Of a DNA stretch of 64,000 nt, positions 2,098 to 18,661 are shown in pieces. The stretch covers positions 322 to 64,321 of the forward strand of contig NZ_AXAS01000003.1 of assembly GCF_000472925.1 (NCBI RefSeq). Reading direction: 5' to 3'. This DNA comes from Bradyrhizobium sp. Ec3.3. GTDB lineage: Bacteria > Pseudomonadota > Alphaproteobacteria > Rhizobiales > Xanthobacteraceae. The position numbers were made by a program, and so were the translations under genes. Below the pieces are notes generated by a model, which saw only the letters and a list, made by a program, of their open reading frames with translations, searched no databases and was not told where the DNA came from. Numbering within the stretch: position 1 is the first letter of the stretch; every line of letters begins with the position of its first letter.

Positions 2098-2117
2098 AAC
2101 GTCTAAAGGAGACTGAA

Positions 2118-3344
2118 TTGCTGTTCGCAAGAATACTGGGAATCGTCGCTGTCGGAACGGCGGTCGCAACGATCACCTCCGGCGCAGCACTCGCCCAAAA
2201 GAAGTACGATACCGGCGCGACCGACACCGAGATCAAGATCGGCAACATCATGCCGTATAGTGGTCCGGCCTCCGCCTACGGCGTCATCGGCAAGACCGAA
2301 GAAGCCTATTTCAAGATGATCAACGACAAGGGCGGCATCAATGGCCGCAAGGTCAACTTCGTCACCTATGACGACGCTTACTCGCCGCCGAAGGCGGTCG
2401 AGCAGGTCCGCAAGCTCGTCGAGAGCGATGAGGTGCTGGCCGTGTTCAACCCGCTCGGCACGCCCTCCAACACAGCGATCCAGAAATATCTCAACGCCAA
2501 GAAGATCCCGCAGCTGTTCGTCGCGACCGGCGCCACCAAGTGGAACGATCCAAAGAACTTCCCATGGACCATGGGCTGGCAGCCCTCCTACCAGAGCGAA
2601 GCGCAAATCTACGCGAAGTGGCTCTTGAGGGAGAAACCCGACGCCAAGGTGGCGGTGCTCTATCAGAACGACGATTTCGGCAAGGACTATCTCAAGGGCA
2701 CCAAGGACGGGTTCGGCGGCAAGGCCTCGAACATCATCATGGAAGAGAGCTATGAGGTGTCCGAGCCGTCGATCGACGGCCATATCGTCAAGATCAAGGC
2801 CGCCAATCCGGACGTGTTCGTGATCTACGCAACGCCGAAATTCGCCGCCCAGGCCATCAAGAAGGTGGCCGAGCTTTCCTGGAAGCCCCTTCAGATCGTC
2901 ACCAACGTTTCGAGCTCGGTCGGCGGCGTGATGAAGCCCGCGGGCCTCGAAAACTCGCAAGGCATCCTGTCTGCCACTTACGGCAAGGACGCCGGCGACC
3001 CGCAGTGGGACAGTGACCCCGGCATGAAGAAGTGGTCGGAGTTCGTCGACAAGTACATGCCTGGCACGGACAAGAACGACAGCTTCGTCGTCTATGGCTA
3101 TGGCGTTGCGCAGACGCTCGCAAAGGTGCTGGAAATGTGCGGCGATGATCTAACCCGCGCAAACGTCATGAAGCAGGCGGCGAGCCTGAAGGACTTCGCT
3201 CCTGACACCTTGCTGCCCGGCGTGAAGATCAATACCAGCGCGACCGATTTTGCCCCCATCAGCCAGCTCCAGATGCAACGCTTCAAGGGCGAGAAATGGG
3301 AACTCTTCGGCGAGATCATCAGCGGCGACGTCCCCTCCCAATGA
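2118..3344 (+). CDS. ABC transporter periplasmic binding protein (first of three paralogues)
   Basis: A 408-residue type I periplasmic binding protein of the LivK class (Peripla_BP_6). A typical Sec signal peptide ends ...SGAALA, giving a mature start QKKYDTGATDTEI. It continues with the conserved IMPYSGPASAYG ligand-loop region and ends GEKWELFGEIISG. I start it at TTG 2118 because an AAGGAGA ribosome site lies just upstream and because this start gives a clean signal peptide; the reading frame stays open far upstream inside livM. It follows livM by 20 bases and presumably delivers ligand to LivHM. The two genes downstream are close copies. Ligand unknown; the family binds amino acids, carboxylates or aromatic acids. 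Confidence 0.9.
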   Translation: MLFARILGIVAVGTAVATITSGAALAQKKYDTGATDTEIKIGNIMPYSGPASAYGVIGKTEEAYFKMINDKGGINGRKVNFVTYDDAYSPPKAVEQVRKLVESDEVLAVFNPLGTPSNTAIQKYLNAKKIPQLFVATGATKWNDPKNFPWTMGWQPSYQSEAQIYAKWLLREKPDAKVAVLYQNDDFGKDYLKGTKDGFGGKASNIIMEESYEVSEPSIDGHIVKIKAANPDVFVIYATPKFAAQAIKKVAELSWKPLQIVTNVSSSVGGVMKPAGLENSQGILSATYGKDAGDPQWDSDPGMKKWSEFVDKYMPGTDKNDSFVVYGYGVAQTLAKVLEMCGDDLTRANVMKQAASLKDFAPDTLLPGVKINTSATDFAPISQLQMQRFKGEKWELFGEIISGDVPSQ

Positions 3345-3374
3345 AGCGCTGACGCAACAGCTTACCAGGTGAGC

Positions 3375-3401
3375 GCCCGCGAGCGATCACGGGGGCTTTT
3401 T
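3375..3401 (+). terminator. Imperfect hairpin with T-run after first binding protein
   Basis: GCCCGCG...CACGGGGGC can pair with two mismatches and is followed by five Ts. It lies 30 bases after the first binding-protein stop and 60 bases before the next start. It is probably a weak or partial terminator, which would lower expression of the downstream copies rather than end the operon. Confidence 0.5.
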
Positions 3402-3460
3402 GTTGACGGCCGGCGCCAATCTTGTTCAATGCAGAGCCGATCCAACCGGGTGGGAGAGCA

Positions 3461-4687
3461 ATGGCTGTCGTCCGTCTTCAGTTCGCGGCCCTGTCGGCCG
3501 CATTCATCTTGTGCACCGCAACGAACGGCACAGCTCTGGCACAAAAGAAATATGACACCGGCGCCACCGACACCGAGATCAGGATCGGCAACATCATGCC
3601 CTACAGCGGTCCGGCCTCCGCCTATGGCGTGATCGGCAAGACCGAAGAGGCCTATTTCAACAAGATCAATGCGGAAGGCGGTATCAACGGTCGCAAGATC
3701 AAGTTCATCTCCTACGACGATGCCTACTCGCCGCCGAAGACGCTTGAACAGGCCCGCAAGCTCGTCGAAAGCGACGAGGTGTTCCTAATCTTCGGATCGC
3801 TCGGCACCTCGACCAACGCCGCCATCCGCAAGTACATGAACGAGAAGAAGGTGCCGCAATTGTTCGTGGCGAGCGGCGCCTCCAAATGGAACGATCCGAA
3901 AAACTACCCATGGACCATGGGCTGGCAACCGAGCTACGCCAGCGAAGCGCGCATCTACGCCAAATACATCATCAAGGAGAAGCCCGAAGCCAGGATCGCC
4001 GTGCTCTACCAGAACGACGATTTCGGCAAGGACTATCTGAGGGGCCTGAAGGACGGCCTCGGGCCGAAGGCCTCGATGATCGTGCTCGAGGACGGCTACG
4101 ACACCTCCGAGCCAGCGATCGACGAGCGCGTCGTGAAGCTAAAGGCCTCGGGCGCCGACGTCTTCATCAGCATTACCACGCCGAAATTCGCCGCCCAGGC
4201 GATCAAGAAGGCGGCCGAGATCAACTGGCATCCGATGCAAATCATCTCCAACGTCTCGGCATCGGTCGGCGGCGTGATCGAGCCGGCGGGCTTCGAGGTG
4301 TCGCAGGGCATCCTCTCGGCGACCTACGTCAAGGACGGCACCGACCCGCAGTGGAACGCCGACGACGGGATGAAGAGGTTCTACGATTTCCTCGCGCAAT
4401 TTGATCCGAAGGCGAACAGGCTCGACGCCGCCGTCGCGTTCGGCTACGGCGCGGCGCAGACGATGGCGAAGGTTCTCCAGATGTGCGGCGACGATCTCAC
4501 GCGCGAGAACGTCATGAGGCAGGCGGCGAGCTTGAAGGATTTCGCTCCGGACACGCTGCTTCCCGGCATCAAGATCAACACCGCGCCGGACAATTTCGCG
4601 CCGATCGCACAGCTCCAGATGATGCGCTTCAAGGGCAGGTCGTGGGAGCTGTTCGGCGACGTCATCTCCAGCGAACTCGGCCACTAG
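3461..4687 (+). CDS. ABC transporter periplasmic binding protein (second of three paralogues)
   Basis: A 408-residue LivK-class binding protein, clearly a tandem copy of the preceding gene. It has the same mature start QKKYDTGATDTEI and the same motifs NDDFGKDYL, TPKFAAQAIKK and SVGGVI.PAGFE, and ends SWELFGDVISSELGH. The signal peptide is MAVVRLQFAALSAAFILCTATNGTALA. I chose ATG 3461, preceded by GGGAGAG, over an in-frame upstream TTG at 3422 that would put charged residues before the signal peptide. Differences from its neighbours cluster in the middle (for example YIIKEKPEARIAVLY and AQFDPKANRLDAAVAFG), so ligand range may differ. It would share the LivFHM machinery. Confidence 0.92.
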   Translation: MAVVRLQFAALSAAFILCTATNGTALAQKKYDTGATDTEIRIGNIMPYSGPASAYGVIGKTEEAYFNKINAEGGINGRKIKFISYDDAYSPPKTLEQARKLVESDEVFLIFGSLGTSTNAAIRKYMNEKKVPQLFVASGASKWNDPKNYPWTMGWQPSYASEARIYAKYIIKEKPEARIAVLYQNDDFGKDYLRGLKDGLGPKASMIVLEDGYDTSEPAIDERVVKLKASGADVFISITTPKFAAQAIKKAAEINWHPMQIISNVSASVGGVIEPAGFEVSQGILSATYVKDGTDPQWNADDGMKRFYDFLAQFDPKANRLDAAVAFGYGAAQTMAKVLQMCGDDLTRENVMRQAASLKDFAPDTLLPGIKINTAPDNFAPIAQLQMMRFKGRSWELFGDVISSELGH

Positions 4688-4852
4688 GGTACGCGGAGTG
4701 CGCGCAACCGAAAATCGCAAGAGACGGTTTGCACAACTTCCATCAACAACATGCTCGGCGCGTGCCGCTATCTCGCAACTGCAACCGGTCACGTGCGCAC
4801 ATCATCCAATGTTTCGCACGCCTCCGCCAAGCGGATGACTACTAAAGGAGCA

Positions 4853-4882
4853 GCCCTCACGACGCCGTCGCGGGGGCTTTTT
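4853..4882 (+). terminator. Rho-independent terminator between second and third binding proteins
   Basis: Stem GCCCTC-A-CGAC, loop GCC, then GTCG-C-GGGGGC, followed by TTTTT. There is a single mismatch in a 10-bp stem. It sits 165 bases after the second binding-protein stop and about 100 bases before the third start, so the third gene may have its own promoter in the gap. The GGGGGCTTTTT tail matches the earlier hairpin at 3391-3401, as expected if the gap was duplicated with the gene. Confidence 0.7.
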
Positions 4883-4986
4883 CTTGATGCTGCAACGCAA
4901 ATCGTATTCAATTGCTGCCACGTCGCAAAAAAAGACCAACGACAAGAAAAGGACGCACACACACCAAGAAAATCAGGGAGACTGGA

Positions 4987-6216
4987 ATGCCCGCTGTCAC
5001 TGGCAAACTTGCTGCCGCGTCAGTCGCGCTTGCGCTGTTCGCGGCCTCGACCTCCACTGCATCCGCCCAGAAGAAATACGATACCGGCGCGACCGACACC
5101 GAGATCAAGATCGGCAACATCATGCCCTATAGCGGCCCTGCGTCCGCCTACGGCATCATCGGCCGCACCGAGGCCGCCTATTTCAAGAAGATCAACGATG
5201 AGGGCGGCATCAACGGCCGCAAGATCAACTTCATCTCCTATGACGACGCCTATTCGCCGCCGAAGACGGTGGAGCAAGCACGCAAGCTCGTCGAGAGCGA
5301 CGAGGTGTTGTTCATCTTCAACTCGCTCGGCACGCCGCCAAACTCGGCGATCCAGAAATACATGAACTCCAAGAAGGTGCCGCAGCTCTTCGTCGCGACC
5401 GGCGCCACCAAGTGGAATGATCCGAAAGACTTCCCCTGGACCATGGGCTGGCAGCCCAACTACCAGAGCGAGACGCAGATCTACGCAAAGTGGCTCTTGA
5501 AGAACAAGCCGGACGCCAAGATCGCGGTGCTGTTCCAGAACGACGACTACGGCAAGGACTATCTCAAGGGCCTCAAGGACGGTCTCGGCGCGAAGGCAGC
5601 GAGCATGATTGTCGCAGAGGAGAGCTATGAAACGTCCGAGCCGACCATCGACAACCATATCGTGAAGCTGAAATCGATCGGCGCCGACGTCTTCATGAAC
5701 ATCACGACGCCGAAATTCGCCGCGCAAGCGATCAAGAAGAACGCCGAGATCGGCTGGAAGCCGCTTCATTTCCTGAACAACGTCTCGGCCTCGGTCGGCA
5801 GCGTGCTCAAGCCCGCGGGCTTCGAGAACTCGCAGGACATCATCTCCGCGGACTATCTGAAGGACGTTTCCGACCCGCAATGGAACAAGGATCCCGGCAT
5901 GAAGGAGTTTCTCGCCTTCATGACGAAGTACTTCCCGGACGGCGACAAGCTCGACCACGGCACCATCGTCGGCTACGGCGTGGCGCAGACCCTGGTGCAG
6001 GTGTTGAAGCAGTGCGGCGACAATCTCACGCGCGAGAACATCATGAAGCAGGCGGCGAGCCTGAAGGACTTCCGGACCGAGGTGCTGCTGCCCGGGATCC
6101 AGATCAATACGTCAGCGACCGACTTCGCGCCGATCAGCCAGCTCCAGCTCGAGAAGTTCAAGGGCGAGAAGTGGGAGCTGTTCGGCGACGTGATCAGCGC
6201 CGACGTCGGCGGCTAG
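4987..6216 (+). CDS. ABC transporter periplasmic binding protein (third of three paralogues)
   Basis: A 409-residue LivK-class binding protein, third member of the tandem set. The signal peptide is MPAVTGKLAAASVALALFAASTSTASA and the mature start QKKYDTGATDTEI. Start ATG 4987 has AGGGAG seven bases upstream; the frame extends back to a TTG at 4912, but the added residues are highly basic and would precede the signal peptide. It differs from the first copy mainly in the second half (EIGWKPLHFLNNVSASVGSVLKPAG and MTKYFPDGDKLDHGTIVGYG). The C-terminus GEKWELFGDVISADVGG is shared. It is the last gene of the ABC operon, before a strong terminator. Specificity is unknown. Confidence 0.92.
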   Translation: MPAVTGKLAAASVALALFAASTSTASAQKKYDTGATDTEIKIGNIMPYSGPASAYGIIGRTEAAYFKKINDEGGINGRKINFISYDDAYSPPKTVEQARKLVESDEVLFIFNSLGTPPNSAIQKYMNSKKVPQLFVATGATKWNDPKDFPWTMGWQPNYQSETQIYAKWLLKNKPDAKIAVLFQNDDYGKDYLKGLKDGLGAKAASMIVAEESYETSEPTIDNHIVKLKSIGADVFMNITTPKFAAQAIKKNAEIGWKPLHFLNNVSASVGSVLKPAGFENSQDIISADYLKDVSDPQWNKDPGMKEFLAFMTKYFPDGDKLDHGTIVGYGVAQTLVQVLKQCGDNLTRENIMKQAASLKDFRTEVLLPGIQINTSATDFAPISQLQLEKFKGEKWELFGDVISADVGG

Positions 6217-6244
6217 CCGCCGGCAGATTGGCCCGCGAAAAACG

Positions 6245-6274
6245 CCCCCCGCGAGAGTCTCGCGGGGGGTTTTC
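6245..6274 (+). terminator. Strong rho-independent terminator ending the Liv operon
   Basis: Perfect 11-bp stem CCCCCCGCGAG / CTCGCGGGGGG with a 3-base loop (AGT), then TTTTC. It starts 29 bases after the third binding-protein stop. Confidence 0.9.
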
Positions 6275-6408
6275 GTTGCCCATCACGCGATCGCATAATC
6301 GAATGATGGGCAAGCCCGCTTACGCTTTGCGCGGCGATGCGCTAGGCAAGGGGCAGGCCTACTCCGGCGAGGTCGCCGGTGCCGCCTCTCCTTGACGAAA
6401 GCATCGCC

Positions 6409-7692
6409 ATGACCGACCGACGTCCCCTGCTCCGCGCCCTATATGACGCCGCCGTTGCCGCCGCCCATCCGAGCACGATTCTCGCACCGCATCTGCGCCC
6501 CGCGCCGAAGGGCCGCGTGATCTGCCTCGCCGCCGGAAAGGGCGCGGGCGCCATGGCCGCGGCCGCAGAGCGGCACTATCTCGATGGGCTCAAGCTCGAT
6601 CCGGAGCGGCTGGTCGGCATCGCCACCACCCGCCACGGCTACGGCGTACCGACGCGACGCATCCGCGTGGTCGAGGCCGGCCATCCCGTGCCGGACGAAG
6701 CCGGCCTGAAGGGCGCCGCTGACACGCTCGCGCTCGCTGGCGAGGCCGGCCCTGATGATCTGCTGCTGGTGCTGCTCACCGGTGGCGGCTCGGCGAACTG
6801 GATCGCGCCGGTGGACGGCATCAGCTTTGCCCAGAAGCAGGCGGTCAACAAGGCGCTGCTCCGCTCGGGCGCGCCGATCGGCGAGATGAATGTCGTCCGC
6901 AAGCATCTGTCGCGCATCAAGGGCGGGCGGCTGGCGCGCGCCGGCAAAAATGCCGCCGAGATCGTCACGCTCGCGATCTCCGACGTGCCGCATGACGATC
7001 CCTCCGCGATCGCCTCCGGCCCCACCGTGCCGGATCCGACCACGCTGGCTGACGCGCGCGCGATCGTCGCGAAATACAAGCTCGACATCGACGATGCCGT
7101 TCGCCGCGCGCTCGACGATCCCGACAACGAAAGCTGCAAGCCCGGCGATGCCGCGTTTGCGCGCGCCCATTTCGAACTGATCGCGCGGCCCAAGCAGTCC
7201 CTCGACGCCGCCGTCAAGCTCGCGAAGGACGCGGGCTATGAGGTGATCGATCTCGGCGCCGATCTCGAAGGCGAGGCGCGCGAGGTTGCCGCCGAGCATG
7301 CGAGGCTGGCCTTGAAGGCGCGCGCCGCTGGCAAACGCACCGCCATCCTCTCCGGCGGCGAGCTCACGGTGACCGTGCGCGGCAATGGCCGCGGCGGCCC
7401 GAACCAGGAATACGCGCTGGCGCTCGCCGGCCTGTTGAAGGACACACCCGACATCGCCGCGCTCGCCGGCGACACTGACGGCGCCGACGGCGGCGCCGGC
7501 AAGCCCACCGACCCCGCCGGCGCACTGATCGATGCTGCAACCTTCGCGAAGATGAAGACGCTGGCGCTCGAGCCGCAGGCCTATCTCGACAACAACGACG
7601 CGACGGCGTTCTTTGCCGCAACAGGAGACTTGCTGCTGCCCGGGCCGACGCTGACCAACGTGAACGACATCAGGGTGATTTTGGTGGATTGA
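6409..7692 (+). CDS. Glycerate 2-kinase (MOFRL family, GckA/TtuD type)
   Basis: A 427-residue protein of the class II glycerate kinase/MOFRL family, often annotated as hydroxypyruvate reductase TtuD. Recognisable blocks are CLAAGKGAGAMAAAAERHY near residue 45, VLLTGGGSANW near 130, NVVRKHLSRIKGGRLA, SDVPHDDPSAIASGPTVPDPTT, and the C-terminal MOFRL segment SGGELTVTVRGNGRGGPNQEYAL with GDTDGADG. It phosphorylates D-glycerate to 2-phosphoglycerate in the cytoplasm, linking tartrate, glyoxylate or serine-cycle carbon to glycolysis. ATG 6409 was chosen over an in-frame upstream start at 6379 (MPPLLDESIA), which lacks family similarity. It stands alone between a terminator and a repeat. Confidence 0.93.
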   Translation: MTDRRPLLRALYDAAVAAAHPSTILAPHLRPAPKGRVICLAAGKGAGAMAAAAERHYLDGLKLDPERLVGIATTRHGYGVPTRRIRVVEAGHPVPDEAGLKGAADTLALAGEAGPDDLLLVLLTGGGSANWIAPVDGISFAQKQAVNKALLRSGAPIGEMNVVRKHLSRIKGGRLARAGKNAAEIVTLAISDVPHDDPSAIASGPTVPDPTTLADARAIVAKYKLDIDDAVRRALDDPDNESCKPGDAAFARAHFELIARPKQSLDAAVKLAKDAGYEVIDLGADLEGEAREVAAEHARLALKARAAGKRTAILSGGELTVTVRGNGRGGPNQEYALALAGLLKDTPDIAALAGDTDGADGGAGKPTDPAGALIDAATFAKMKTLALEPQAYLDNNDATAFFAATGDLLLPGPTLTNVNDIRVILVD

Positions 7693-7737
7693 GAGGCGCC
7701 CTGTCCGGCGTCATCGCCGGGCCAACCTCAACACCGC

Positions 7738-7842
7738 TGTCATTCCCCGCGAAGGCGGGGAATCCAGTACGCCGCGGCCTGTCCGTATCCTCGCACTCTC
7801 TCTGGAATACTGGGATCGCCCGATCAAGTCGGGCGATGACAC
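7738..7842. repeat. Palindromic intergenic repeat, family A
   Basis: An imperfect 105-base inverted repeat: TGTCATTCCCCGCGAAGGCGGGGAATCC on the left, and a right arm with CTGGGATCGCCCGA...TCGGGCGATGACA. Similar elements lie at 24711-24812 and 57785-57889. It fills the gap between two converging genes. No open reading frame is supported in 7693-7884. Confidence 0.75.
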
Positions 7843-7884
7843 CGAGAGTAAGGCGGGCGCGCGCCGCAAACTCGTCAGCGCAGC

Positions 7885-8409
7885 TCACTCCTTGCCGCCG
7901 ACGTGCTCCAGGAGCGCGAGCAGGCCTTTCAGCAGGTCGAGCGGCGACGGCGGGCAGCCCTTGATGTGCAGATCCACCGGAACGACCTCGGACACGCCGC
8001 CGACGCAGGCGTAGCTGCCTTTGAAGATGCCGCCATCAGCGGCGCAGCCGCCCACCGCGACCACCCATTTCGGATCGGGCGTGGCGTTATAGGTCCGCTC
8101 CAGCGCCTGCCTCATGTTCTTCGTCACCGGTCCCGTGACCAGCAGGACGTCGGCATGGCGCGGCGAGGCGACGAAGCGCAGACCGAAACGTTCGATGTCG
8201 TAGAAGGCGTTGGAGAGCGCGTGGATCTCCAGCTCGCAGCCATTGCACGAACCGGCGTCGACCTGGCGGATCGCGAGCGACCGGCCGAGTCTTGCCTGCG
8301 CCGCGCGGTCGACCTTGCTGGCAAGTTCAGCCAGCGCGGTCTCGTCCGGCGCCGGGGCGGGCTCGGTCAGAGAGCCGTGGGTGAGACTTTCGAGCAGGGT
8401 CTTGCGCAT
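7885..8409 (-). CDS. hyfI: HyfI/NuoB-type small iron-sulfur subunit of an Ehr-like membrane complex
   Basis: A 174-residue protein of the NuoB/HycG/HyfI family, which carries the [4Fe-4S] cluster next to the large subunit (N2 in complex I). Cluster ligands look intact: C55 and C58 in SCNGCE, C122 in GGCAADGG, C152 in GCPPSP. So this subunit should still pass electrons. It has an N-terminal extension of about 45 residues before the fold. It is the last gene of a six-subunit operon and starts three bases after the HyfG-type gene. The hyf symbol marks family only; partner residues in the large subunit argue against hydrogenase activity. Confidence 0.9.
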   Translation of the reverse strand: MRKTLLESLTHGSLTEPAPAPDETALAELASKVDRAAQARLGRSLAIRQVDAGSCNGCELEIHALSNAFYDIERFGLRFVASPRHADVLLVTGPVTKNMRQALERTYNATPDPKWVVAVGGCAADGGIFKGSYACVGGVSEVVPVDLHIKGCPPSPLDLLKGLLALLEHVGGKE

Positions 8410-8412
8410 GGC

Positions 8413-9921
8413 TCAGAGATCCGCGCCCGAATAGGAACAGTTGAACGATTTGTTGCAGAGCGGGAAGTCGGCGATGATGTTGCCCTCGATCGCGGTCTCC
8501 AGCAGCGGCCACTGGAACCAGGAGGCATCGCGCAGGTGGCAGCGCTGCACGCGCAACTCCCGGTCCAGCCTGAGCCAGACCAGCACGTCACCGCGAAACG
8601 CTTCGGTCACAGCCAGGCCTTCGCATTCGCCGTGCCCGGCCGGCAGCGCGCTCATGATCTCGCCCGGTGCCATCAGGTCCAGAATCTGCGCGATCAGCGC
8701 AACGCTCTGCTCGACCTCGCGGATGCGGATCCAGACCCGCGCATTGACGTCGCCCGCCTCGAGCACCGGCACCTCGAACGACAGCCGATCGTAGGGGGCG
8801 TAGGCAAGCATGCGCCGCGCATCGAAATTGCGCCCCGAGGCACGGCCGACATAGCCGCCGGCGCCGAACTGGCGCGCATATTCCGTTTTCACGATGCCCG
8901 TGGTGACGGTGCGGTCCTGAAGCGACGCCGTGTTGTCGTAGAGTTCGATCAGGCGTGGAAACACCTTGTCGATTTCGGCAAGCAGCGTGCGCAGTGCCGC
9001 AATGCCGTCCGGTGCGATGTCGCGCACCACGCCGCCGGGCACGATGACGTCCATCATTAACCGATGGCCGAATGCAGCATCGGCGGCGCGCAGGCAGCGC
9101 TCGCGCAAAATGCCGGTCTGCGCATGCATCAACGCGAAAGAGGCGTCGTTGCAGATCGCGCCGATGTCGCCGAAATGATTGGCAAGCCGCTCCAGTTCCG
9201 CCATCAGCGCCCGCAAGTGCGTCGCGTGCGGCGGCGCCTCGATGTCGAGCGCTGCCTCGGCAGCGCGCGCAAAGGCAAAAGCGTAGGCGACGGCGCTGTC
9301 GCCAGAGGTACGATTGGCGAGCTTTGCCGCAGCCTCAAGGTTCGCGCCCTGCAGCAGGGATTCGACGCCCTTATGGGTATAGCCAAGCCATTGCTCCAGC
9401 CGCACCACATGCTCGCCATTGGCGGTGAAGCGGAAATGGCCGGGCTCGATGATGCCGGCATGGACGGGTCCCACCGCAACCTGATGCAGTGCTTCGCCTT
9501 CGGCCGGTAGGAACCGATACAGGACCGCCTCGCGCGGCGCGTCGCGGCTGCCGAGCGGGAACGATTTGTCCCAGACGTAATGGTCGAGCCACGGCCGCAC
9601 ATCGTCCGCGCTGGTTGACGTCAGCCCGAACAGGTCGTGGATGGTACGCTCCAGCCGCAGCGCGGGCGGATGATGGCGGGCGACGCTTGGAAAGCTACCC
9701 GCCGCACATTCGTAGGTGACGACCGCGATCTCGGCGACGGCTTCATCGAGCAGCGCCATGTGGACAACGGCCGGCTCACCCCAGAGGCCAAGCAGGGTCA
9801 GACGGCCGGCGGCCAGTTCGTCGACTGCGGCCCGCCAGCCCGCTTCTGCCACGACGACACGCGGCCAGGGGCGGTGCGACGGCACCGCGTGAACATGGGG
9901 GATGCTGTCGAGGATACCCAT
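8413..9921 (-). CDS. hyfG: HyfG/HycE-type large subunit (NuoC-NuoD fusion) lacking [NiFe] ligands
   Basis: A 502-residue protein with an N-terminal NuoC-like part (about 1-140) fused to a NuoD/hydrogenase-large-subunit part. The block GPVHAGIIEPGHFRF at 151-165 is typical of group 4 hydrogenase large subunits and their relatives. Where [NiFe] enzymes have R-x-C-G-x-C, this protein reads R204-T-S-G-D-S209, so both cysteines are serine. At the C-terminus there is no DPCxxC; instead it ends PLC489NKSFNC495SYSGADL. A hydrogen-activating site is therefore very unlikely. It resembles the energy-converting-hydrogenase-related (Ehr) group. It is co-transcribed with membrane subunits and a HyfI-type partner. 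Substrate unknown. Confidence 0.9.
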   Translation of the reverse strand: MGILDSIPHVHAVPSHRPWPRVVVAEAGWRAAVDELAAGRLTLLGLWGEPAVVHMALLDEAVAEIAVVTYECAAGSFPSVARHHPPALRLERTIHDLFGLTSTSADDVRPWLDHYVWDKSFPLGSRDAPREAVLYRFLPAEGEALHQVAVGPVHAGIIEPGHFRFTANGEHVVRLEQWLGYTHKGVESLLQGANLEAAAKLANRTSGDSAVAYAFAFARAAEAALDIEAPPHATHLRALMAELERLANHFGDIGAICNDASFALMHAQTGILRERCLRAADAAFGHRLMMDVIVPGGVVRDIAPDGIAALRTLLAEIDKVFPRLIELYDNTASLQDRTVTTGIVKTEYARQFGAGGYVGRASGRNFDARRMLAYAPYDRLSFEVPVLEAGDVNARVWIRIREVEQSVALIAQILDLMAPGEIMSALPAGHGECEGLAVTEAFRGDVLVWLRLDRELRVQRCHLRDASWFQWPLLETAIEGNIIADFPLCNKSFNCSYSGADL

Positions 9922-9924
9922 CGC

Positions 9925-11364
9925 CTATCCCAGCAGCTTTGCGACGTTAGTAAAGCCGGTCACCAGGACCGGCGGCAGATAGATCCCCGCCATCGCGACC
10001 AGCGCCAGATGCGTGAACATCGGCACGTAGGAGGCCTCCGCCGGCGCGGTCTTGCCTTTGGGCTCGCCGAACATCACGACGCCGATCCGCAGCAAGAGCC
10101 CGCCGAGCGCGATGATGATACCGAGCACCAGGATCGCGGTCAGCCATGGCGCGCGGGAAAAGGTCGAGCTGACGACCAGGAACTCGCTCATGAAGATGCC
10201 GAGCGGCGGCAGGCCGACGATGGCGATGACGCCGAGCATCAGGCCCCAGCCGAGCACCGGGTTGGTCACCGTGAGCCCACCAATGTCGGCGATCTTCTGC
10301 GTACCCTTGACCTGCGCGATGTGACCGACCGCGAAGAAGATCGCGGACTTGGTCAGCGAGTGCATGGTCATGTGCAGAAGGCCCGCGAAGTTCGCGAGCG
10401 GCCCGCCCATGCCGAAGGCAAACACGATGATGCCCATGTGCTCGATCGAGGAATAAGCGAACATGCGCTTGATGTCGCGGCGGCGGTACAGCATCAGCGC
10501 CGCGAAGATCACCGAGATCAGGCCCATCGTCACCATCAGCGGCCCCGGCGCGATCGCCGCCGAATTGACCGCGAGCATCATCTTGAAGCGCAGAAGCGCA
10601 TAGAGCGCGACATTCAGCAGAAGGCCCGAGAGCACCGCGGAGATCGGCGTTGGGCCTTCGGCGTGCGCGTCGGGCAGCCAGGCGTGCAGCGGCGCGAGGC
10701 CGACCTTCGTGCCGTAGCCAAGCAGCAGGAAGACGAAGGCGACGTTGAGCAGCGCCGGATCGAATGCGGCGGCGTGCTGGACCAGCACGGTCCACACCAT
10801 GCCGTCGAGCCCTTCGCCCACCGCAGGACGCGCCGCCATGTAGACCAGGATGGTGCCGAACAGCGCCAGCGCGATGCCGACGCTGCCGAGGATGAAATAC
10901 TTCCACGCGGCTTCGAGCGCCTCATGGGTACGGTAGATACCGACCATCAGCACGGTCGTCAGCGTCGCGACCTCGACCGCAACCCACATCAGGCCGATAT
11001 TGTTGGCGATGAGCGCGAGGTTCATCGCGAACATCAGGATCTGGTACATCGCGTGATAGAAGCGCAGGAAGGCCGGCGTCAACCGTCCGGTCTCGATTTC
11101 GTGATGGATGTAGCTCGCGCTGAACACGGATGTGGTGAAGCCGACGAAGGTCGTCAGCACGATGAAGACCTTGTTGAGGTCGTCGAGCAGCAGATATTGC
11201 CCTGACGTCGGTTCGATCACGAACAGCGAGAGCGAGGTGAGGAAGGTCGCGAGCGCCGCAACGACGTTGAGCTTTGCCGTCAGGAAGTAGCCGGGCAGTA
11301 TCGCGAGCAGCGCGGCCGAGATGGCCGGGATCAACAGGATGGCACCGAGCGCGTCGATCGTCAT
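9925..11364 (-). CDS. hyfF: HyfF-type proton-translocating membrane subunit (NuoN/MrpD family)
   Basis: A 479-residue polytopic protein of the proton-conducting antiporter-like family (Proton_antipo_M). Key charged residues of the half-channels are present: E131 in WVAVEVATL, K220 and H227 in GYGTKVGLAPLHAWLPDAHAEGPTPIS. It should move H+ (or Na+) across the inner membrane, driven by redox change in the HyfG/HyfI arm. It is the second antiporter-like subunit of the operon beside the HyfB type. Its start overlaps the HyfE-type stop by four bases (11361-11364), which suggests translational coupling. Confidence 0.93.
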   Translation of the reverse strand: MTIDALGAILLIPAISAALLAILPGYFLTAKLNVVAALATFLTSLSLFVIEPTSGQYLLLDDLNKVFIVLTTFVGFTTSVFSASYIHHEIETGRLTPAFLRFYHAMYQILMFAMNLALIANNIGLMWVAVEVATLTTVLMVGIYRTHEALEAAWKYFILGSVGIALALFGTILVYMAARPAVGEGLDGMVWTVLVQHAAAFDPALLNVAFVFLLLGYGTKVGLAPLHAWLPDAHAEGPTPISAVLSGLLLNVALYALLRFKMMLAVNSAAIAPGPLMVTMGLISVIFAALMLYRRRDIKRMFAYSSIEHMGIIVFAFGMGGPLANFAGLLHMTMHSLTKSAIFFAVGHIAQVKGTQKIADIGGLTVTNPVLGWGLMLGVIAIVGLPPLGIFMSEFLVVSSTFSRAPWLTAILVLGIIIALGGLLLRIGVVMFGEPKGKTAPAEASYVPMFTHLALVAMAGIYLPPVLVTGFTNVAKLLG

Positions 11365-12023
11365 CGCCGCTCTCCCCTGAAGCGGTCGAGCGCCTGCACA
11401 TCGACACTGTCGAAACGCTCGCGGATGCGAAACAGGAAGATGCCGATCACGATGAAGGCGATCAGCACCGAAAAGGCGACGCTGATCTCGACCACCAGCG
11501 GCATGCCCTTGGCACCAGTCGCCGCCAGCACGAGGCCATTCTCCAGCGACATGAAACCGACCACCTGGCTCACGGCATTGCGCCGCGTCACCATGATCAG
11601 GAGCCCGAGCAGCACCACCGACAGCGCGAAGGCCAGATCCTCGCGCGCGAGCGCATCCGCGCCCGGCGTCACCCGCAGCATCACCACCATCGACAGCGCG
11701 ACGAGGCCGATGCCGGCCATCATGGTGAGCCCGATGCCGATCACGTTCTCGATCTCGCGGTGAATGCCGAGCCGCCGGATGATCCGGTGCAGCGCTACCG
11801 GAATGATGATGGCCTTGAAAACGAGAGCGATCAGCGCGGTGACATAGAGATGCGGCGCCGCCTGCACATAGGCCTGCCAGGCCACCGACAACGCCAGCAC
11901 GCCGGCGTGCAGCGCATAGACGTTGAGCAGCGCATAGAGCCGGTCCTGGTAAAGCAGCATGAAGCTCGCCAGCACGAGCGATCCGGCGAGCAGGTGGGCG
12001 ATATCGAATTGCAGGCTGCTCAT
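11361..12023 (-). CDS. hyfE: HyfE-type membrane subunit (NuoK-like)
   Basis: A 220-residue membrane protein of the HyfE family, with about six predicted helices. The second half resembles NuoK/MnhC (AVSQVVGFMSLENGLVLAAT), including the membrane-buried glutamate, while the first half (LLAGSLVLASFMLLYQDRLYALLNVYALHAGVLAL) is the HyfE-specific part. It links the antiporter-like subunits in the membrane arm. It is placed between the HyfC- and HyfF-type genes with gaps of three bases and a four-base overlap. Length is normal for HyfE. Confidence 0.92.
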   Translation of the reverse strand: MSSLQFDIAHLLAGSLVLASFMLLYQDRLYALLNVYALHAGVLALSVAWQAYVQAAPHLYVTALIALVFKAIIIPVALHRIIRRLGIHREIENVIGIGLTMMAGIGLVALSMVVMLRVTPGADALAREDLAFALSVVLLGLLIMVTRRNAVSQVVGFMSLENGLVLAATGAKGMPLVVEISVAFSVLIAFIVIGIFLFRIRERFDSVDVQALDRFRGERR

Positions 12024-12026
12024 GTC

Positions 12027-12983
12027 CTACAGGCTCCCCGACACGAAGCGCAGCAGCGTCGCGAGCAGCGCCAGCATCAGCGCCGCCCCCAAAAACTCCG
12101 GAATACGGAATACGCGCATCTTGGCGATCGACGTCTCGAACAGCGCGAGCAGGAAGCCAAGAACTGCAAGCTTGCCGAAATAGAGCAGCGCGCCGAACGC
12201 CAGTGTCGCGACGCTCGCATCCGCAGTCGCGGTGCCCCAGGGCAGGAACACGCAGGCGATCAGCGAGACGTAGAGCAGCAGCTTGAGCTGCGACGACAGG
12301 TCGATCAGCGCAAGATGCCGCCCCGAATATTCCAGCACCATGGCCTCATGAACCATCGTGAGCTCGAGATGGGTCGCGGGATTGTCGACGGGGATGCGGG
12401 CATTCTCCGCCAGCGCCACAATGGTCAGCGCGACGAACGCCATGCCGAGCGACACGCGCAGACCGACCGCGTCCGAGCCCATGAACTCGGCAACGTTGGA
12501 AAGCTGGGTCGAGCCCGCGATCATGGCGACCGCGAACACCGTTATCAGGATGGCAGGCTCGGCCAGGGTCGCGATCATCACCTCGCGGCTGGAGCCGATG
12601 CCGCCGAAGGCGGTGCCGACATCCATGCCGGCAAGCGCCTGGAAGAAACGCGCGCTGCCGAGCAGCGCAATGATGGCGATGAGGTCGGCGGTACCGGAGA
12701 ACAACAGACCGTTGCCGAAGGTCGGCACCAGCGAAGCCGCTACCCAGGTGCCGGCAAACATCAGATAGGGAATGACGCGGAACAGCCATGAAGCGTTGTC
12801 CGCGAGCACGACGTCCTTGCGCATCAGGCGGACGAGGTCGCGATAGGGCTGAACCAGCGGCGGTCCGCGCCGGCGGAGCAGCCGCGCCTTCACCTTGCGG
12901 ACAAAGCCGGTCAGCAGCGGGGCGAGCAGCAGCACCAGCAGCATCTGCGCGCCCTGCGAGAGGATGTCGCGCAGCGCGGTCAT
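12027..12983 (-). CDS. hyfC: HyfC/NuoH-type membrane anchor subunit
   Basis: A 318-residue NuoH/HycD/HyfC-family protein. It has the early loop RRRGPPLVQPYRDLVRLMRKD and the conserved cytoplasmic loop AENARIPVDNPATHLELTMVHEAMVLEYSG with several carboxylates that connect the redox arm to the proton path in complex I. The start MTALRDILSQG at 12983 overlaps the HyfB-type stop by ATGA; longer open frame upstream is antisense-like and arginine-rich and was ignored. It anchors the HyfG/HyfI module to the membrane. Confidence 0.92.
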   Translation of the reverse strand: MTALRDILSQGAQMLLVLLLAPLLTGFVRKVKARLLRRRGPPLVQPYRDLVRLMRKDVVLADNASWLFRVIPYLMFAGTWVAASLVPTFGNGLLFSGTADLIAIIALLGSARFFQALAGMDVGTAFGGIGSSREVMIATLAEPAILITVFAVAMIAGSTQLSNVAEFMGSDAVGLRVSLGMAFVALTIVALAENARIPVDNPATHLELTMVHEAMVLEYSGRHLALIDLSSQLKLLLYVSLIACVFLPWGTATADASVATLAFGALLYFGKLAVLGFLLALFETSIAKMRVFRIPEFLGAALMLALLATLLRFVSGSL

Positions 12984-14980
12984 AGCGCCACCACCAGGAG
13001 CAGAACGATGAGCGCTCCGAAGACCAGCGTCAGATAGCGGCGGATGGTGAGGAATTGCAGGGTGTTGATGCGTTCGGTGGCGAAGCCGATGATCGTCGCG
13101 ATCGGCGCGTAGAGCGCGTCCCAGATCAGATCGTGCAGTTCGACCTTGAGCCGTGCAGGCAGCGGCGATGATGGCGGTGGCATCTCGCCGATCTCGCGTG
13201 CCGCAAAGATCACGCTGCCGAACACGCGGCGGATCGGCTGCGAGAAGCTCGAGGCGGAGTATTGGATCGTGGGGTCGGGGTCGGGATACCCGCAATCCCA
13301 GGCGGGCGCGCGGCGCAGGCGATCGGAGGCGAGGCGGTGAATGGCCGACGCCGCGGCGGTGCCGCAGAGCGCAACGAACAGGAAGACGAGAAGGCCGTTA
13401 TAAGAGCTGCGGCTTTCCGCGATCGGCACGATCGTGAGCCATTCCAGCCCGGTCTGATGCGGCATGACGTTGCCGACCATGGCCTTGCTCACCGGCGCCA
13501 GCGCGTCGATGAACAGGCCGGGCAGGATGCCGGCGACGAGGCAGAGTGCCGCAAGCGCGAACATCGCAGCCAGCGAGAAGCGATCGGTCTCATGCGCGCT
13601 TGCGGCGACATCCGTGCGCGGCCGGCCGAGGAAGCTGATGCCATAGAGTTTGACGAAGCAGGCCGCGGCGAAAGCCGCCGCCAGCGCCAGGAGGCCGCCG
13701 ACCGCGGGGATGGCGAGCTTCAAACCCCAGGATGGCAGTTGCGGCGACAGCAGGATTGCCTGGAAGGTCAGCCATTCCGAGACAAAACCGTTGAAGGGCG
13801 GCAGCGCCGAGATCGCGACGCAGCCGACCAGCATCGCGAAGGCCGTGCGTGGCATGCGATGGATCAGCCCGCCGAGCTTCTCCATGTCGCGCGCGCCGGT
13901 TGCCTCCAGCACCGCGCCGGCGCCGAAGAACAGAAGGCTCTTGAACAGCGCGTGATTGAAGACGTGCAGCATCGCCGCGGTGAAGGCGAGCGCCGCCACC
14001 CAGTCGAGCCCCTGCGCCTTGAAAGCGAGCGCGAGCCCGAGGCCGGTGAAGATGATGCCGATGTTCTCGATGGTCGAATAGGCCAGCACGCGCTTGATGT
14101 CGCGCTGCATCAGCGCATAGAGCACGCCCAGCGTCGCGGTGGGGCCGCCGACCAGCAGCACCACCATGCTCCACCACCACTCAGGCTCCGGCAACAGGTC
14201 AAACACGATGCGGACGAAACCATAGACGGCGACCTTGGTCATCACGCCGCTCATGAGGGCCGAGACGTGGCTGGGAGCGGCGGGATGAGCAAGTGGCAGC
14301 CAGGCGTGCAGCGGCACGACGCCCGCCTTCGAGCCGGCGCCGAGCAGGACGAGGATCACCACCATGCCGGCGAGCGCGGCCGAGGGATGCGAAGCGCGGA
14401 TCGCGTCGAAATCGTAACCGGCACCGCTCGCAAGCAGACCGAAGGCGAGCAGCAGGACCAGCGTGCCGAAGCTTGCCATCAGGAGATAGACATAGCCGGC
14501 ACGGATATTCTCCGCCTCGCGGTGGTGCGACACCACCAGAGCCCAGGAGGTCAGCGACATGAACTCCCACGCCACCAGAAAGCTGAAGGCGTCGTTGGCG
14601 AGCACGACCGTATTCATGCCGGCGAGATAGGCGGGATAGAACGGCAGCACGCGACCGGGAGATTCTTCATGCGCGCCGTAGCCGAGCGCGAACAGGCTGG
14701 CGGCCGCGCCACCAAGATTGATCACGACCAGGAAGAAGGCCGACAGCGCATCGAGACGGAAGTGAGCCCCCAGCCAGGGCAGGCCGATCGGCAGAGTGGC
14801 ACTCAACACGGGATGGGCCGAATCGAGCAGGTGAAGGAGCGCGGTGACGCAGAGTGCCGCGGTGACGACCAGGCAGGCGCCATAGAGCACGGCCGAACCG
14901 CGCGGGTACGACGACAGCACGATCCCGACCGGCGCCAGCGCCAGCAGCAGTGCCACCGACCATAGCGCCACCGAGATCAT
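12980..14980 (-). CDS. hyfB: HyfB-type proton-translocating membrane subunit (NuoL family)
   Basis: A 666-residue NuoL/HyfB-family protein, the largest membrane subunit of the operon. Conserved channel residues are visible: E139 in VAWEFMSLTSW, K218 and H225 in GAGSKAGVVPLHAWLPLAHPAAPSHVSALMSG, K249 in MTKVAVYG. A long C-terminal region follows (about residue 500 on), with a hydrophilic part WDCGYPDPDPTIQYSASSFSQPIRRVFG typical of HyfB. GGGAG lies just upstream of ATG 14980. It is the first structural gene after the XRE regulator (34-base gap). It should pump protons or sodium ions. Confidence 0.94.
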   Translation of the reverse strand: MISVALWSVALLLALAPVGIVLSSYPRGSAVLYGACLVVTAALCVTALLHLLDSAHPVLSATLPIGLPWLGAHFRLDALSAFFLVVINLGGAAASLFALGYGAHEESPGRVLPFYPAYLAGMNTVVLANDAFSFLVAWEFMSLTSWALVVSHHREAENIRAGYVYLLMASFGTLVLLLAFGLLASGAGYDFDAIRASHPSAALAGMVVILVLLGAGSKAGVVPLHAWLPLAHPAAPSHVSALMSGVMTKVAVYGFVRIVFDLLPEPEWWWSMVVLLVGGPTATLGVLYALMQRDIKRVLAYSTIENIGIIFTGLGLALAFKAQGLDWVAALAFTAAMLHVFNHALFKSLLFFGAGAVLEATGARDMEKLGGLIHRMPRTAFAMLVGCVAISALPPFNGFVSEWLTFQAILLSPQLPSWGLKLAIPAVGGLLALAAAFAAACFVKLYGISFLGRPRTDVAASAHETDRFSLAAMFALAALCLVAGILPGLFIDALAPVSKAMVGNVMPHQTGLEWLTIVPIAESRSSYNGLLVFLFVALCGTAAASAIHRLASDRLRRAPAWDCGYPDPDPTIQYSASSFSQPIRRVFGSVIFAAREIGEMPPPSSPLPARLKVELHDLIWDALYAPIATIIGFATERINTLQFLTIRRYLTLVFGALIVLLLVVAL

Positions 14981-15014
14981 TAGAGCTCCCGGATTGCGAG
15001 TTGTGCGCGCGTCG

Positions 15015-15287
15015 TCATTTGTTGTCCTCGCCCGCGCTGGGCTGGGATTTCAGCCGTACGCCGCGGCCACTTCCGGTCGAGGGCGCGCCCTCGCCGATCA
15101 GCTCGATGCCCGCGGCCGCGAGCGCCTCGACCAGCTTCATCAGGGAATCGACATTGCCGCGAATGACGCCCTCGGAGGCCTCCATGCGCTGGATCGTCGG
15201 CAGCGACAGCGAGCAGCGCTGCGCCAGCTCGCGCTGGTCGATCCCGAGCAGGGCGCGAGCGGCCCGAAGCTGCGCGGCGGTAATCAC
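15015..15287 (-). CDS. XRE-family helix-turn-helix regulator heading the Ehr-like operon
   Basis: A 90-residue protein that is mostly one HTH_3 domain: ITAAQLRAARALLGIDQRELAQRCSLSLPTIQRME, followed by a short helix-rich segment (DSLMKLVEALAAAGIELIGEG) and a basic tail. I chose the GTG at 15287 because GGGAGGT lies seven bases upstream; an in-frame start at 15329 would place that ribosome site inside the gene and add an unrelated MLYQSRRLPWEVLS. It is the first gene of the operon, 34 bases before the HyfB-type gene, so it probably controls its own transcript. The matching palindrome lies at 15317-15365. Confidence 0.85.
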   Translation of the reverse strand: MITAAQLRAARALLGIDQRELAQRCSLSLPTIQRMEASEGVIRGNVDSLMKLVEALAAAGIELIGEGAPSTGSGRGVRLKSQPSAGEDNK

Positions 15288-15316
15288 TGACAGCACCTCC
15301 CATGGCAAGCGCCGTG

Positions 15317-15369
15317 ATTGATAAAGCAAGCATATGACATCTAAAATGATGTATCAAGCATCAATTATA
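15317..15369 (-). promoter_or_regulatory. Promoter and nested palindromic operator of the XRE/Ehr operon
   Basis: Read on the minus strand, a consensus TATAAT (15364-15369) lies 76 bases before the GTG start. Just downstream is ACATC-N6-GATGT (15337-15352) nested inside ATTGAT...ATCAAT (15317-15322 and 15360-15365). A dyad overlapping the expected transcription start fits autorepression by the XRE protein. No good -35 is visible, so an activator or an alternative sigma factor may be needed. Confidence 0.5.
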
Positions 15370-15404
15370 CCGCATTGCACATCAGGAGGCGGTTGCCTGC
15401 CCGC

Positions 15405-15419
15405 TGCAATCTCATTGCA
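15405..15419. promoter_or_regulatory. Perfect inverted repeat upstream of the GGDEF-EAL gene
   Basis: TGCAAT-CTC-ATTGCA is a perfect 6-bp dyad about 120 bases before the GGDEF-EAL start, in the gap between divergent genes. It may bind a regulator of either gene. There is no direct evidence beyond the symmetry. Confidence 0.3.
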
Positions 15420-15537
15420 TCCCTTAACGTGAAATTCGCTGCAACTTCAGGAACCTGCCTGCGCGGGAGGCAGATCGTGGAGACCGTTCACCGGCCTCTG
15501 CTCTAATGCTTTCCGCGCTTGAAGGGGGCGAACATAC

Positions 15538-17652: not shown

Positions 17653-17751
17653 TCGCTTCCGGCAGCGGGGCCGAGCAAGCGATCGCCTTGGCATCAAACG
17701 CAAACCGCCAAGCCCGCGAGCATCGAGTCTCTTGCCGCGCGACAGGTGCGT

Positions 17752-17921
17752 TCCCTCCCCCCTTGCGGGGGAGGGCTAGGGAGGAGGGTGCCGCACGGCG
17801 CGCTCTCTCGGATCTGGCGAAGGGCGACCGCGAGTCCTTGTTGGGGGCATCGCGAGAATCTCGCGCACCTTTTGCTGGGCTACCCCCCTCCCCTGCCCTC
17901 CCCCGCAAGGGGGGAGGGAGC
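17752..17921. repeat. Intergenic inverted repeat, family E (CTCCCC...GGGGAG)
   Basis: CCCTCCCCCCTTGCGGGGGAGGG at the left and CCCTCCCCCGCAAGGGGGGAGGG at the right flank a spacer of about 120 bases. It fills most of the 316-base gap between converging genes (17653-17968); I see no gene there. Related copies are at 22224-22375, 27297-27470 and 50570-50752. Confidence 0.7.
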
Positions 17922-17968
17922 GCAGGGTGTTGCGGGGCGAGAACCGAGCTCCGGGGTGACGAGATCGC

Positions 17969-18487
17969 TCAAAACTCGTTGGCGATCTTGGAGAGCATCG
18001 CGATCAGGGACTCGCGGTTGGCCCCACCCAACAGCTCGTTCAACCGCGCCTCATGCTTGGTGGCGACGAGCTTTTTGGCGCGGCCAAGCACGGCCTTGCC
18101 CTTGTCGGTCAGGACCAGGATGTGCGAGCGACGATCGTTGGTGGAACGGATCCGCGCGCAAAGGTCGCGACTCTCGAGATTATCCAGCATGGCCACGAAA
18201 TTCGGGCGCAGGATGCCGAGCGTGGAGGCGATCTCGGTTTGATTGCGGCCGGGATTCTTTTCGACCAGCAACAGCACGGAAAACTGCGCCGGCGTGAGCT
18301 GGAGCGAAGCCATGCAGCGCAGGAAGTTCTCGAATACCTTGAGCTGGGCGCGCTTGAGCACGTAGCCGAGCTGTTCGGAGAGCTCGCCAAGCTGAAGCGC
18401 CTCGCCGGCTTCATCGCTGGCGTCCCTGCGCGCCCTGGCTGCCTCCGCGCCCTTTGCCGTTGCTTCCGCCGCCTTGGAAACGGTCAT
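17969..18487 (-). CDS. MarR-family transcriptional regulator
   Basis: A 172-residue MarR-type winged-helix protein. After an alanine-rich leader of about 30 residues, the DNA-binding part reads LTPAQFSVLLLVEKNPGRNQTEIASTLGILRPNFVAMLDNLESRDLCARIRSTNDRRSHILVLTDKGKAVL. The wing DRRSHILVLTDKG is typical. It is divergent from a Liv-type ABC operon (174-base gap with an AT-rich dyad region), so it likely controls that transporter in response to an aromatic or other carboxylic ligand or its CoA thioester. That role is inferred from position only. Confidence 0.9.
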   Translation of the reverse strand: MTVSKAAEATAKGAEAARARRDASDEAGEALQLGELSEQLGYVLKRAQLKVFENFLRCMASLQLTPAQFSVLLLVEKNPGRNQTEIASTLGILRPNFVAMLDNLESRDLCARIRSTNDRRSHILVLTDKGKAVLGRAKKLVATKHEARLNELLGGANRESLIAMLSKIANEF

Positions 18488-18540
18488 CGCCTGTTGCTCG
18501 CAATCCCGTTAGATTTAAGCCCGGTGTTCCCCGGCCCTTG

Positions 18541-18580
18541 AAGTTATATTCGATAATTGTTATTGACCATATCAAATATC
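18541..18580. promoter_or_regulatory. AT-rich dyad region between marR and the second ABC operon
   Basis: In a GC-rich genome this 40-base AT-rich patch stands out. It contains ATAA-TTG-TTAT (18553-18563), TTGA-CCATA-TCAA (18563-18575) and ATAT-CAA-ATAT (18569-18579) as overlapping inverted repeats, and a -35-like TTGACC at 18563. It is the best candidate for the MarR operator and for the promoters of both divergent units. Confidence 0.45.
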
Positions 18581-18661
18581 GTCAGCGATTTTCAATGGCT
18601 GTGAGGGACGATCCACCGCGAAACGGGGATCGGTCCGGATCTTAAGGGGGAGCGTCCGGTC

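Follow-up and report, generated by a model that had tools for sequence, protein, structure and literature searches.

An Ehr complex of Bradyrhizobium sp. Ec3.3 with a hydrogenase-like large subunit that lacks the [NiFe] ligands

The operon described here raises the question of what a complex built like a group 4 [NiFe] hydrogenase does once the ligands of its metal site have been lost. It lies on the minus strand of a 64,000-nt stretch of the Bradyrhizobium sp. Ec3.3 genome (the window), in the order HTH regulator, hyfB, hyfC, hyfE, hyfF, hyfG and hyfI, and no plus-strand open reading frame across 8413-9921 was found in the window's ORF list. Group 4-like complexes without [NiFe] ligands are described as Ehr in the available portions of three papers (PMC6349859, PMC10284858, PMC12342949), and the window's complex belongs to this known class; what is new is the anatomical detail. 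Both the Ehr assignment and a rebuilt active site had been proposed in the original prediction, and both are upheld by the ligand alignment, family models, a tree and published Ehr descriptions. The features of the locus, in window coordinates, are the following.

8413..9921, minus strand: Ehr large subunit (502 aa), a HyfG/HycE-like, NuoC- plus NuoD-like fusion without [NiFe] ligands, identified by family models, PDB match and alignment
9295..9312, minus strand: RTSGDS, residues 204-209 of the large subunit, with S206 and S209 at HycE C241 and C244; D208 is new and found in 94/94 loci
8416..8469, minus strand: C-terminal DFPLCNKSFNCSYSGADL, residues 485-502, with K491, N494, S496 and G499 at HycE G526, D529, C531 and C534; it ends at the HycE cleavage point
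7885..8409, minus strand: Ehr small subunit (174 aa), HyfI/NuoB-like, with [4Fe-4S] cysteines C55, C58, C122 and C152
8344..8409, minus strand: residues 1-22 of the small subunit, an N-terminal segment with a helix predicted at 2-10 and with likeness to the N-terminus of HycF-type ferredoxin subunits
9925..11364, minus strand: HyfF-like antiporter subunit (hydrogenase 4 subunit F, 846.8 bits, cut-off 533)
11361..12023, minus strand: HyfE-like membrane subunit (88.4 bits, under the cut-off of 136)
12027..12983, minus strand: HyfC/NuoH-like membrane subunit (PF00146, 139.9 bits; start placed by its overlap with hyfB)
12980..14980, minus strand: HyfB/NuoL-like antiporter subunit (hydrogenase 4 subunit B, 873.1 bits, cut-off 667)
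15015..15287, minus strand: HTH_3 regulator directly upstream of hyfB (putative GTG start at 15287, read from the sequence)

The large subunit carries RTSGDS, GPVHAGIIEPGHFRF at 151-165 and PLCNKSFNCSYSGADL at 487-502, and its cysteines are at positions 72, 257, 276, 433, 461, 489 and 495. It was aligned with HycE, MbhL, three HycE-like proteins, two NuoD and Ehr relatives; subtraction of a 12-residue tag from the HycE numbering reproduces the residues named in the available text of the cryo-EM paper (PMC9474812). HycE C241, C244, C531 and C534 were found to align with S206, S209, S496 and G499, that is with three serines and one glycine, and no cysteine of the window's protein aligned to any of these four ligand positions. 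The predicted RTSGDS and the predicted loss of the C-terminal DPCxxC are thus both seen, and the alignment to HycE and NuoD that had been proposed as a check placed no other cysteine pair at the [NiFe] ligand positions. By comparison, the suggestion that C489 and C495 might be new metal ligands was not supported, as these residues align with HycE I524 and P530, neither of which is a ligand position, and are partly lost in the family.

Conservation was assessed in 94 loci, comprising the window, 80 relatives (the best 80 among the matches listed by a sequence-pattern search, where 585 of at least 590 matches listed encode relatives), the Rhizobium johnstonii locus L136 and 12 loci of group B; the labels A (the window's group, n=82) and B (n=12) are our own and were assigned by score. 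E159, D208, N248, R360, E402, R443, D485, N490, K491, S492, N494 and Y497 were each found in all 94 loci, H249 and F493 each in 93, S206 in 91 (Cys in two, Ala in one), S496 in 89 and S209 in 88 (Cys in one), while G499 and D501 were present in 93/93 covered loci. N490 and Y497 are nonetheless not universal, because L106, a divergent relative outside the 94-locus set, reads LLLKSFNPSHAG; another locus, L105, has Ala in place of G207. The antiporter Glu/Lys and HyfC acidic residues were also invariant or nearly so, and comparison of the six genes with their counterparts in two Bradyrhizobium homologues gave dN/dS values of 0.03-0.16, indicating purifying selection. This conservation and the low dN/dS show that the RTSGDS-type pocket is not a chance feature. 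Three cysteines differed between the groups: C489 (81/82 in A vs 2/12 in B), C495 (82/82 vs 7/12) and C257 (82/82 vs 8/12). A replacement metal site at C489/C495 was therefore rejected as a family feature, being off the ligand positions and lost in part of the family.

The C-terminus adds to this picture. The protein ends at the equivalent of HycE R537, with D501 aligned to D536, whereas the three HycE-like proteins of the formate hydrogenlyase loci L128-L130 extend beyond this point. The available text of PMC7384014 places the maturation cleavage between R and MTVV in HycE and between R and VTLV in HyfG; the Ehr protein is therefore made without a maturation tail, and the C-terminal extension removed in nickel maturation is absent from the window's large subunit. 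A true group 4 hydrogenase, with ligands supplied by other cysteines, could be argued from HyfB and HyfF, which exceed the NCBIfam cut-offs for hydrogenase 4 subunits B and F, and from public records that name the large subunit a hydrogenase; against the empty ligand positions, the loss of C489/C495 in group B members and the missing propeptide, we consider this extremely improbable. Judged from the sequences, the complex most likely makes no H2.

Around the lost site, the cavity is partly kept and partly changed. The canopy arginine R478 of HycE is retained as R443, while D529, called strictly conserved in the available text of PMC9474812, is replaced by N494, and the position of G526 is taken by K491. 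The HycE residues E193, H284, E437 and R395, to which the same text assigns roles in the proton path, are kept as E159, H249, E402 and R360. The large subunit exceeds no NCBIfam cut-off; its best score is to NuoD (203.3 bits vs 360), with a second NuoD-type score of 154 against a cut-off of 459.35. Among Pfam models, Complex1_49kDa and Complex1_30kDa were passed and PF00374 fell below gathering (22.7 vs 25.8). An AlphaFold2 model of the protein (mean pLDDT 79.3) matched the fold of HycE best (7z0s_E, Z 36.5, rmsd 3.0 over 461 residues, 25% identity), with the best of the complex I 49-kDa chains (Z 34-36) tying with HycE within 1 Z unit. Since pLDDT fell below 50 in stretches 138-164, 170-181, 257-260 and 479-502, the loops that hold most cavity residues, no cavity is claimed from the model.

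A likeness to complex I on this scale could also be read as a quinone-reactive, complex I-like enzyme, with quinone in the cavity and a soluble carrier as donor, which would be a special case of the one-electron pump proposed below. The NuoD models cover residues 147-425, the 49-kDa fold scores come close to that of HycE, and NuoI is found in most Ehr genomes, so that complex I and quinones are presumably present there. The histidine of the complex I beta1-beta2 loop, however, has no counterpart in the window's protein, where the loop carries the hydrogenase-type E159, and the NuoD score is far under its cut-off. What we take to be the position of the quinone-binding tyrosine of complex I is G207 here. 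On balance, this reading is possible but doubtful.

Further analysis of the gene set showed hyfBCEFGI to be contiguous in 78 of the 94 loci, 62 of these with at least 1.5 kb on either side, and an HTH gene precedes the operon in 55 of the 78. In the other 16 loci the sequence breaks off at the hyfB side in 13 and after hyfG in one, L076; in the remaining two, L073 and L074 from Rhodopila, it breaks off at the hyfB side as well, and no small-subunit gene was found downstream of hyfG in the 3.7 kb available in L073 (6084-9735) or the 10 kb in L074 (4992-14992), both genomes having two or more close HyfI homologues on other contigs. The same six genes are found in the annotation of Rhizobium johnstonii and Burkholderia pyrrocinia. 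While the available text of PMC2864759 describes hyfBCEFGI of Cupriavidus metallidurans as resembling an incomplete operon, the contiguity counts suggest that the six genes are a whole unit and are conserved as such. Conserved neighbours were considered as Ehr partners and rejected, as no protein cluster besides the operon and the HTH gene exceeded 15/81 loci among the top 45 clusters inspected, with genes called by a crude GC-based method; the frequent clusters were Bradyrhizobium neighbours like those of the window itself, or antisense ORFs. In Methylocapsa acidiphila, about 0.9 kb separates the Ehr large- and small-subunit genes (L026:11501-12374). Elsewhere in the window, on the plus strand at 2103-6216, a pair of permease-like genes precedes tandem genes for three near-alike ABC-type substrate-binding proteins, each with KKYDTGATDTEI. 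Other contigs of the window's genome yield a NuoD-like match and, over its full length, a PF00374 match.

No homologue of HycF, HycB/HyfA or NuoI was found by tblastn (E 1e-3) in the 94 Ehr loci, 16 of which are truncated, while the same searches matched all four control loci, i.e., the three formate hydrogenlyase loci and a complex I locus (L135). A scan for ferredoxin motifs gave three ORFs in the Ehr loci (in L022, L043 and L077), all well away from the operon and unmatched by the HycF, HycB and NuoI searches. NuoI itself was found above cut-off elsewhere in 58/62 Ehr genomes (61 at E 1e-5), and sharing with Ehr is therefore possible; the four genomes without it decide nothing, because completeness is 78-89% in three of them and the fourth spans only 0.9 Mb. 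Accordingly, the complex could include as a stable subunit either NuoI on loan from complex I or a ferredoxin encoded elsewhere. This seems very unlikely to us, as an N-terminal helix of the small subunit that resembles HycF may fill the same place.

That helix (residues 2-10; block pLDDT 73 in the model) stands at the start of the HyfI-like protein; in all three formate hydrogenlyase loci, a ferredoxin gene separates the large-subunit gene from that of the small subunit. A profile of the N-terminus was made from 90 small subunits, the number given by the 94 loci, with starts set by a script that favoured ATG and a position some 46 residues ahead of the first cluster motif, and was compared with 889 control ORFs called in the same loci, some of them surely spurious. 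The HycF N-termini scored 15.4, 15.0 and 8.2 bits against a control maximum of 10.2, so that two of the three exceeded all 889 controls, and when anchored at the start all three did (control maximum 5.5), the third HycF being counted from the later of two adjacent Met codons. With the group B profile alone the three gave 17.8, 17.4 and 12.1 (control maximum 9.9). With that of group A alone they were not prominent (3.3, 0.3 and -1.1; control 99th percentile 8.2, maximum 11.8), and the ferredoxin subunit picked out by group A (17.4; 5.7 with group B) was that of a group 4 hydrogenase set on an Azospirillum thermophilum plasmid (L161). None of the three HycG N-termini scored with the 90-sequence profile, and no NuoI among 20 from complex I scored above every control, four ranking in the top 1%. 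Among five ferredoxin-fused small subunits, three gave no score, and those of Mycobacterium branderi (7.7) and Allomeiothermus (10.1) were in the top 0.4% but below the maximum. We hold with moderate confidence that the ferredoxin domain was lost and its N-terminus kept on the small subunit, a possible deletion scar in a short segment. Consistent with loss on the A+B stem, the ferredoxin-fused relatives from Caballeronia, Burkholderia cenocepacia and Variovorax branch outside A+B (A+B 100/98); a Rhodococcus relative without the domain also branches outside, and the loss may therefore be older or repeated. The hydrogenase set at L161:694-10062 has both CxxC pairs (CGIC, DPCISC) and adjoins an aldehyde ferredoxin oxidoreductase gene.

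The small subunit of the window has C135 in addition to C55, C58, C122 and C152, the cluster ligands that had been predicted to be kept and that are indeed present. All four cluster cysteines were found in 91/91 small subunits recovered from groups A and B. The description of the complex as redox-competent stands in so far as it has this one [4Fe-4S] site; it is weakened by the lack of a ferredoxin-type subunit in the 94 loci, and by two distant relatives in which the ligands of this cluster are gone. In the small subunits of Allomeiothermus silvanus (Deinococcota; L157:11272-12144) and M. branderi (Actinomycetota; L163:8848-9642), all four proximal-cluster ligands are missing, yet the reading frames are open and PF01058 is matched at 77.0 and 63.6 bits. 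Both proteins were considered as cluster-free and this was rejected, because the fused ferredoxin region keeps CP and CxxCxxC (C50 with C69, C72 and C75 in Allomeiothermus; C52 with C70, C73 and C76 in M. branderi), a set for one ferredoxin-type [4Fe-4S] cluster; the M. branderi protein passes three Pfam Fer4 cut-offs.

Fluoride riboswitches (Rfam RF01734) were found on plasmids of B. cenocepacia (L160:5182-5252) and Caballeronia (L159:5161-5231), about 240 bp upstream of the first gene, and on a plasmid of M. branderi (L163:3600-3673), ahead of a NUDIX gene that precedes the Ehr-type set; all three sets have ferredoxin-fused small subunits, and the three loci hold 13 riboswitches in total. 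Genes annotated nearby encode CrcB, inorganic diphosphatase and DUF190 (L160), and DUF190 and enolase (L163). A riboswitch at the window's own operon was considered and rejected, none being found in the window; none was found in L136, L157, L158, L162, L164 or L165, nor in 15 further Ehr loci (6 of group A, 9 of group B). A search with the B. cenocepacia large subunit matched 72/398 Pseudomonadota genomes, which are the 62 Ehr genomes and ten of a weaker group described below, so that the sample holds no fluoride-type set. The pocket of L159 and L160 reads NEASFG in place of NKSFN, and the ligand of this fluoride-type pocket therefore need not be that of the NKSFN pocket.

These relatives bear on the main rival reading, a non-redox ion pump or antiporter whose cytoplasmic head would take up a small, perhaps anionic, ligand in the K491/R443 cavity and gate or couple the Mrp-like arm, the cluster being structural. 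The absent ferredoxin-type subunit, the two PF01058 proteins without proximal-cluster ligands, the three riboswitches, and the loss of the canopy acid with gain of a lysine in 94/94 loci all agree with it. We nevertheless consider it unlikely, given that the cluster cysteines are complete in every small subunit found in groups A and B, that both relatives retain ferredoxin-type [4Fe-4S] cysteines, that ligand loss and riboswitch coincide in M. branderi only, and that no fluoride riboswitch was found in the window or in the other Ehr loci listed above. A wider version of this idea, which we regard as quite improbable, is that the Ehr family, as a line related to complex I, is shedding redox chemistry at the former active site: [NiFe] would have been lost, the window's group would have given up the ferredoxin domain, with the helix left as a scar, and Allomeiothermus and M. 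branderi the proximal cluster, so that the wire to the pocket would be cut and one ferredoxin-type set kept. What is left would act in ionic or anion stress as an ion pump or antiporter gated by a ligand, fluoride-switched in one branch.

The reading that we prefer, tentatively and at somewhat less than an even chance, is that of a six-subunit, hydrogenase-derived, complex I-like ion pump without [NiFe] ligands, driven by one-electron chemistry at its cluster. A soluble one-electron carrier of ferredoxin or flavodoxin type would dock on the small subunit at the place of the former ferredoxin domain and directly reduce the single [4Fe-4S] cluster. The electron would then reach a small substrate in the former active-site cavity, which is lined by S206, D208, R443, K491, N494 and S496 and has lost one acid and gained one lysine relative to hydrogenase, and protonation through the kept E159 and an H249/E402/R360 relay would drive pumping of H+ (or Na+) by the HyfB/C/E/F arm. 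As no flavin or metal ligands were recognized in the cavity, the substrate should take single electrons, which favours a quinone or a sulfane/disulfide over formate or NAD(P)H. This one-electron pump is suggested by the ligand and proton-path mapping, the 94-locus conservation, the lack of a linked ferredoxin subunit, the HycF-like N-terminus, the HycE fold match and purifying selection; against it are the NuoI found elsewhere in most Ehr genomes, the two Rhodopila loci without a linked small subunit and the two relatives without cluster ligands. In the available portions of the literature, a formate linkage has been suggested for Ehr (PMC6349859, PMC7735108), more Ehr protein is reported in formate-grown Geobacter than in hydrogen-containing conditions (PMC7894505), and the function is given as unknown (PMC10284858; 2025 survey PMC12342949). 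No demonstrated Ehr function was found in the literature searched, the scope of which leaves out most subscription papers.

A profile of 32 family members scored at least 434 bits in 62/398 sampled Pseudomonadota genomes, plus one contig-edge fragment, indicating that Ehr is widespread. The next group was ten genomes at about 240-263 bits, of which the three inspected were HycE-like with both CxxC pairs, and other matches were at most 164. Ehr was present in 5/10 sampled genomes of the window's genus, and also on plasmids, one of which, pRL11 of Rhizobium johnstonii 3841, is typed as conjugative by PLSDB. On plasmid 3 of Variovorax sp. PBL-E5 (L164), two Ehr gene sets lie a few kb apart (2331-9615 and 13027-18603), one with a ferredoxin-fused small subunit and the second cut by the end of the stretch. 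In a tree of 58 large subunits, built without the published Geobacter and Nitrospira Ehr and subject to long-branch warnings, the family formed one clade apart from HycE, MbhL and NuoD (100/100), inside which three very divergent rows (L131-L133) were placed; C. metallidurans CH34 was compared by motif only. Group B was a clade in one tree (99/94), and part of it joined A in another (96/95). L131, L132 and L133 come from one alphaproteobacterial family (f15), and their large and small subunits are strongly diverged members of the same superfamily, the fourth cluster cysteine of the L133 small subunit being a serine. PF00016, which also catches RuBisCO-like proteins, was matched in 40/62 Ehr genomes vs 74/336 others (the contig-edge fragment, in G144, counted as without Ehr). 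Within family f38, in 66 members with any profile match, it was found in 23/30 with Ehr vs 30/36 without, and in genus g1 in 10/10, of which 5 have Ehr. As these within-group counts show no excess, a link of Ehr to CO2 fixation was set aside as shared ancestry.

Public records name the Ehr large subunit NADH-quinone oxidoreductase subunit C, nickel-dependent hydrogenase or HypE, and such names mislead predictions of H2 metabolism. The constant pocket residues, the absent ferredoxin subunit with its possible scar, and the relatives with cluster loss or riboswitches make the question of the reaction specific: whether the cluster is bound, whether it is needed, and which ligand sits at K491/N494/D208.

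Among known systems, HycE of E. coli formate hydrogenlyase-1 is the best PDB sequence match (5.1e-49) as well as the best fold match, and has the proton-path residues in common with the window's protein. Compared with HycE/HycG, however, the window's complex has neither the four [NiFe] ligands nor the canopy Asp nor a C-terminal propeptide, with no HycF/HycB in the loci; of the features of a group 4 [NiFe] hydrogenase, the two CxxC pairs, the C-terminal extension and a ferredoxin-type subunit in the gene set are thus missing. Respiratory complex I shares the fold, a [4Fe-4S] N2-type subunit and NuoH/L/M-like membrane subunits, but differs by its NuoI, not found in Ehr loci, by its quinone-site His and Tyr, neither found at the aligned positions, and by NuoD scores that fall below cut-off. 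The Pyrococcus membrane-bound sulfane reductase (MBS, 6u8y), also group 4-related, is not known to have hydrogenase activity, and sulfane is reduced at its exposed proximal cluster. Its MbsL matches the large subunit at 74.2 bits, and it has a NuoI-type subunit (6u8y_N), whereas none was found in Ehr loci. The closest likeness is to Ehr itself: the window has a group 4-homologous large subunit, no [NiFe] cysteines and Mrp antiporter-like membrane subunits, and the class includes hyfBCEFGI of C. metallidurans CH34, Acidithiobacillus ferrooxidans and Nitrospira, with the same six genes and an Mrp-type arm. The CH34 megaplasmid locus (L165) has the NKSFN motif and a VDAGSCNGCE small subunit, as in the Ehr described here.
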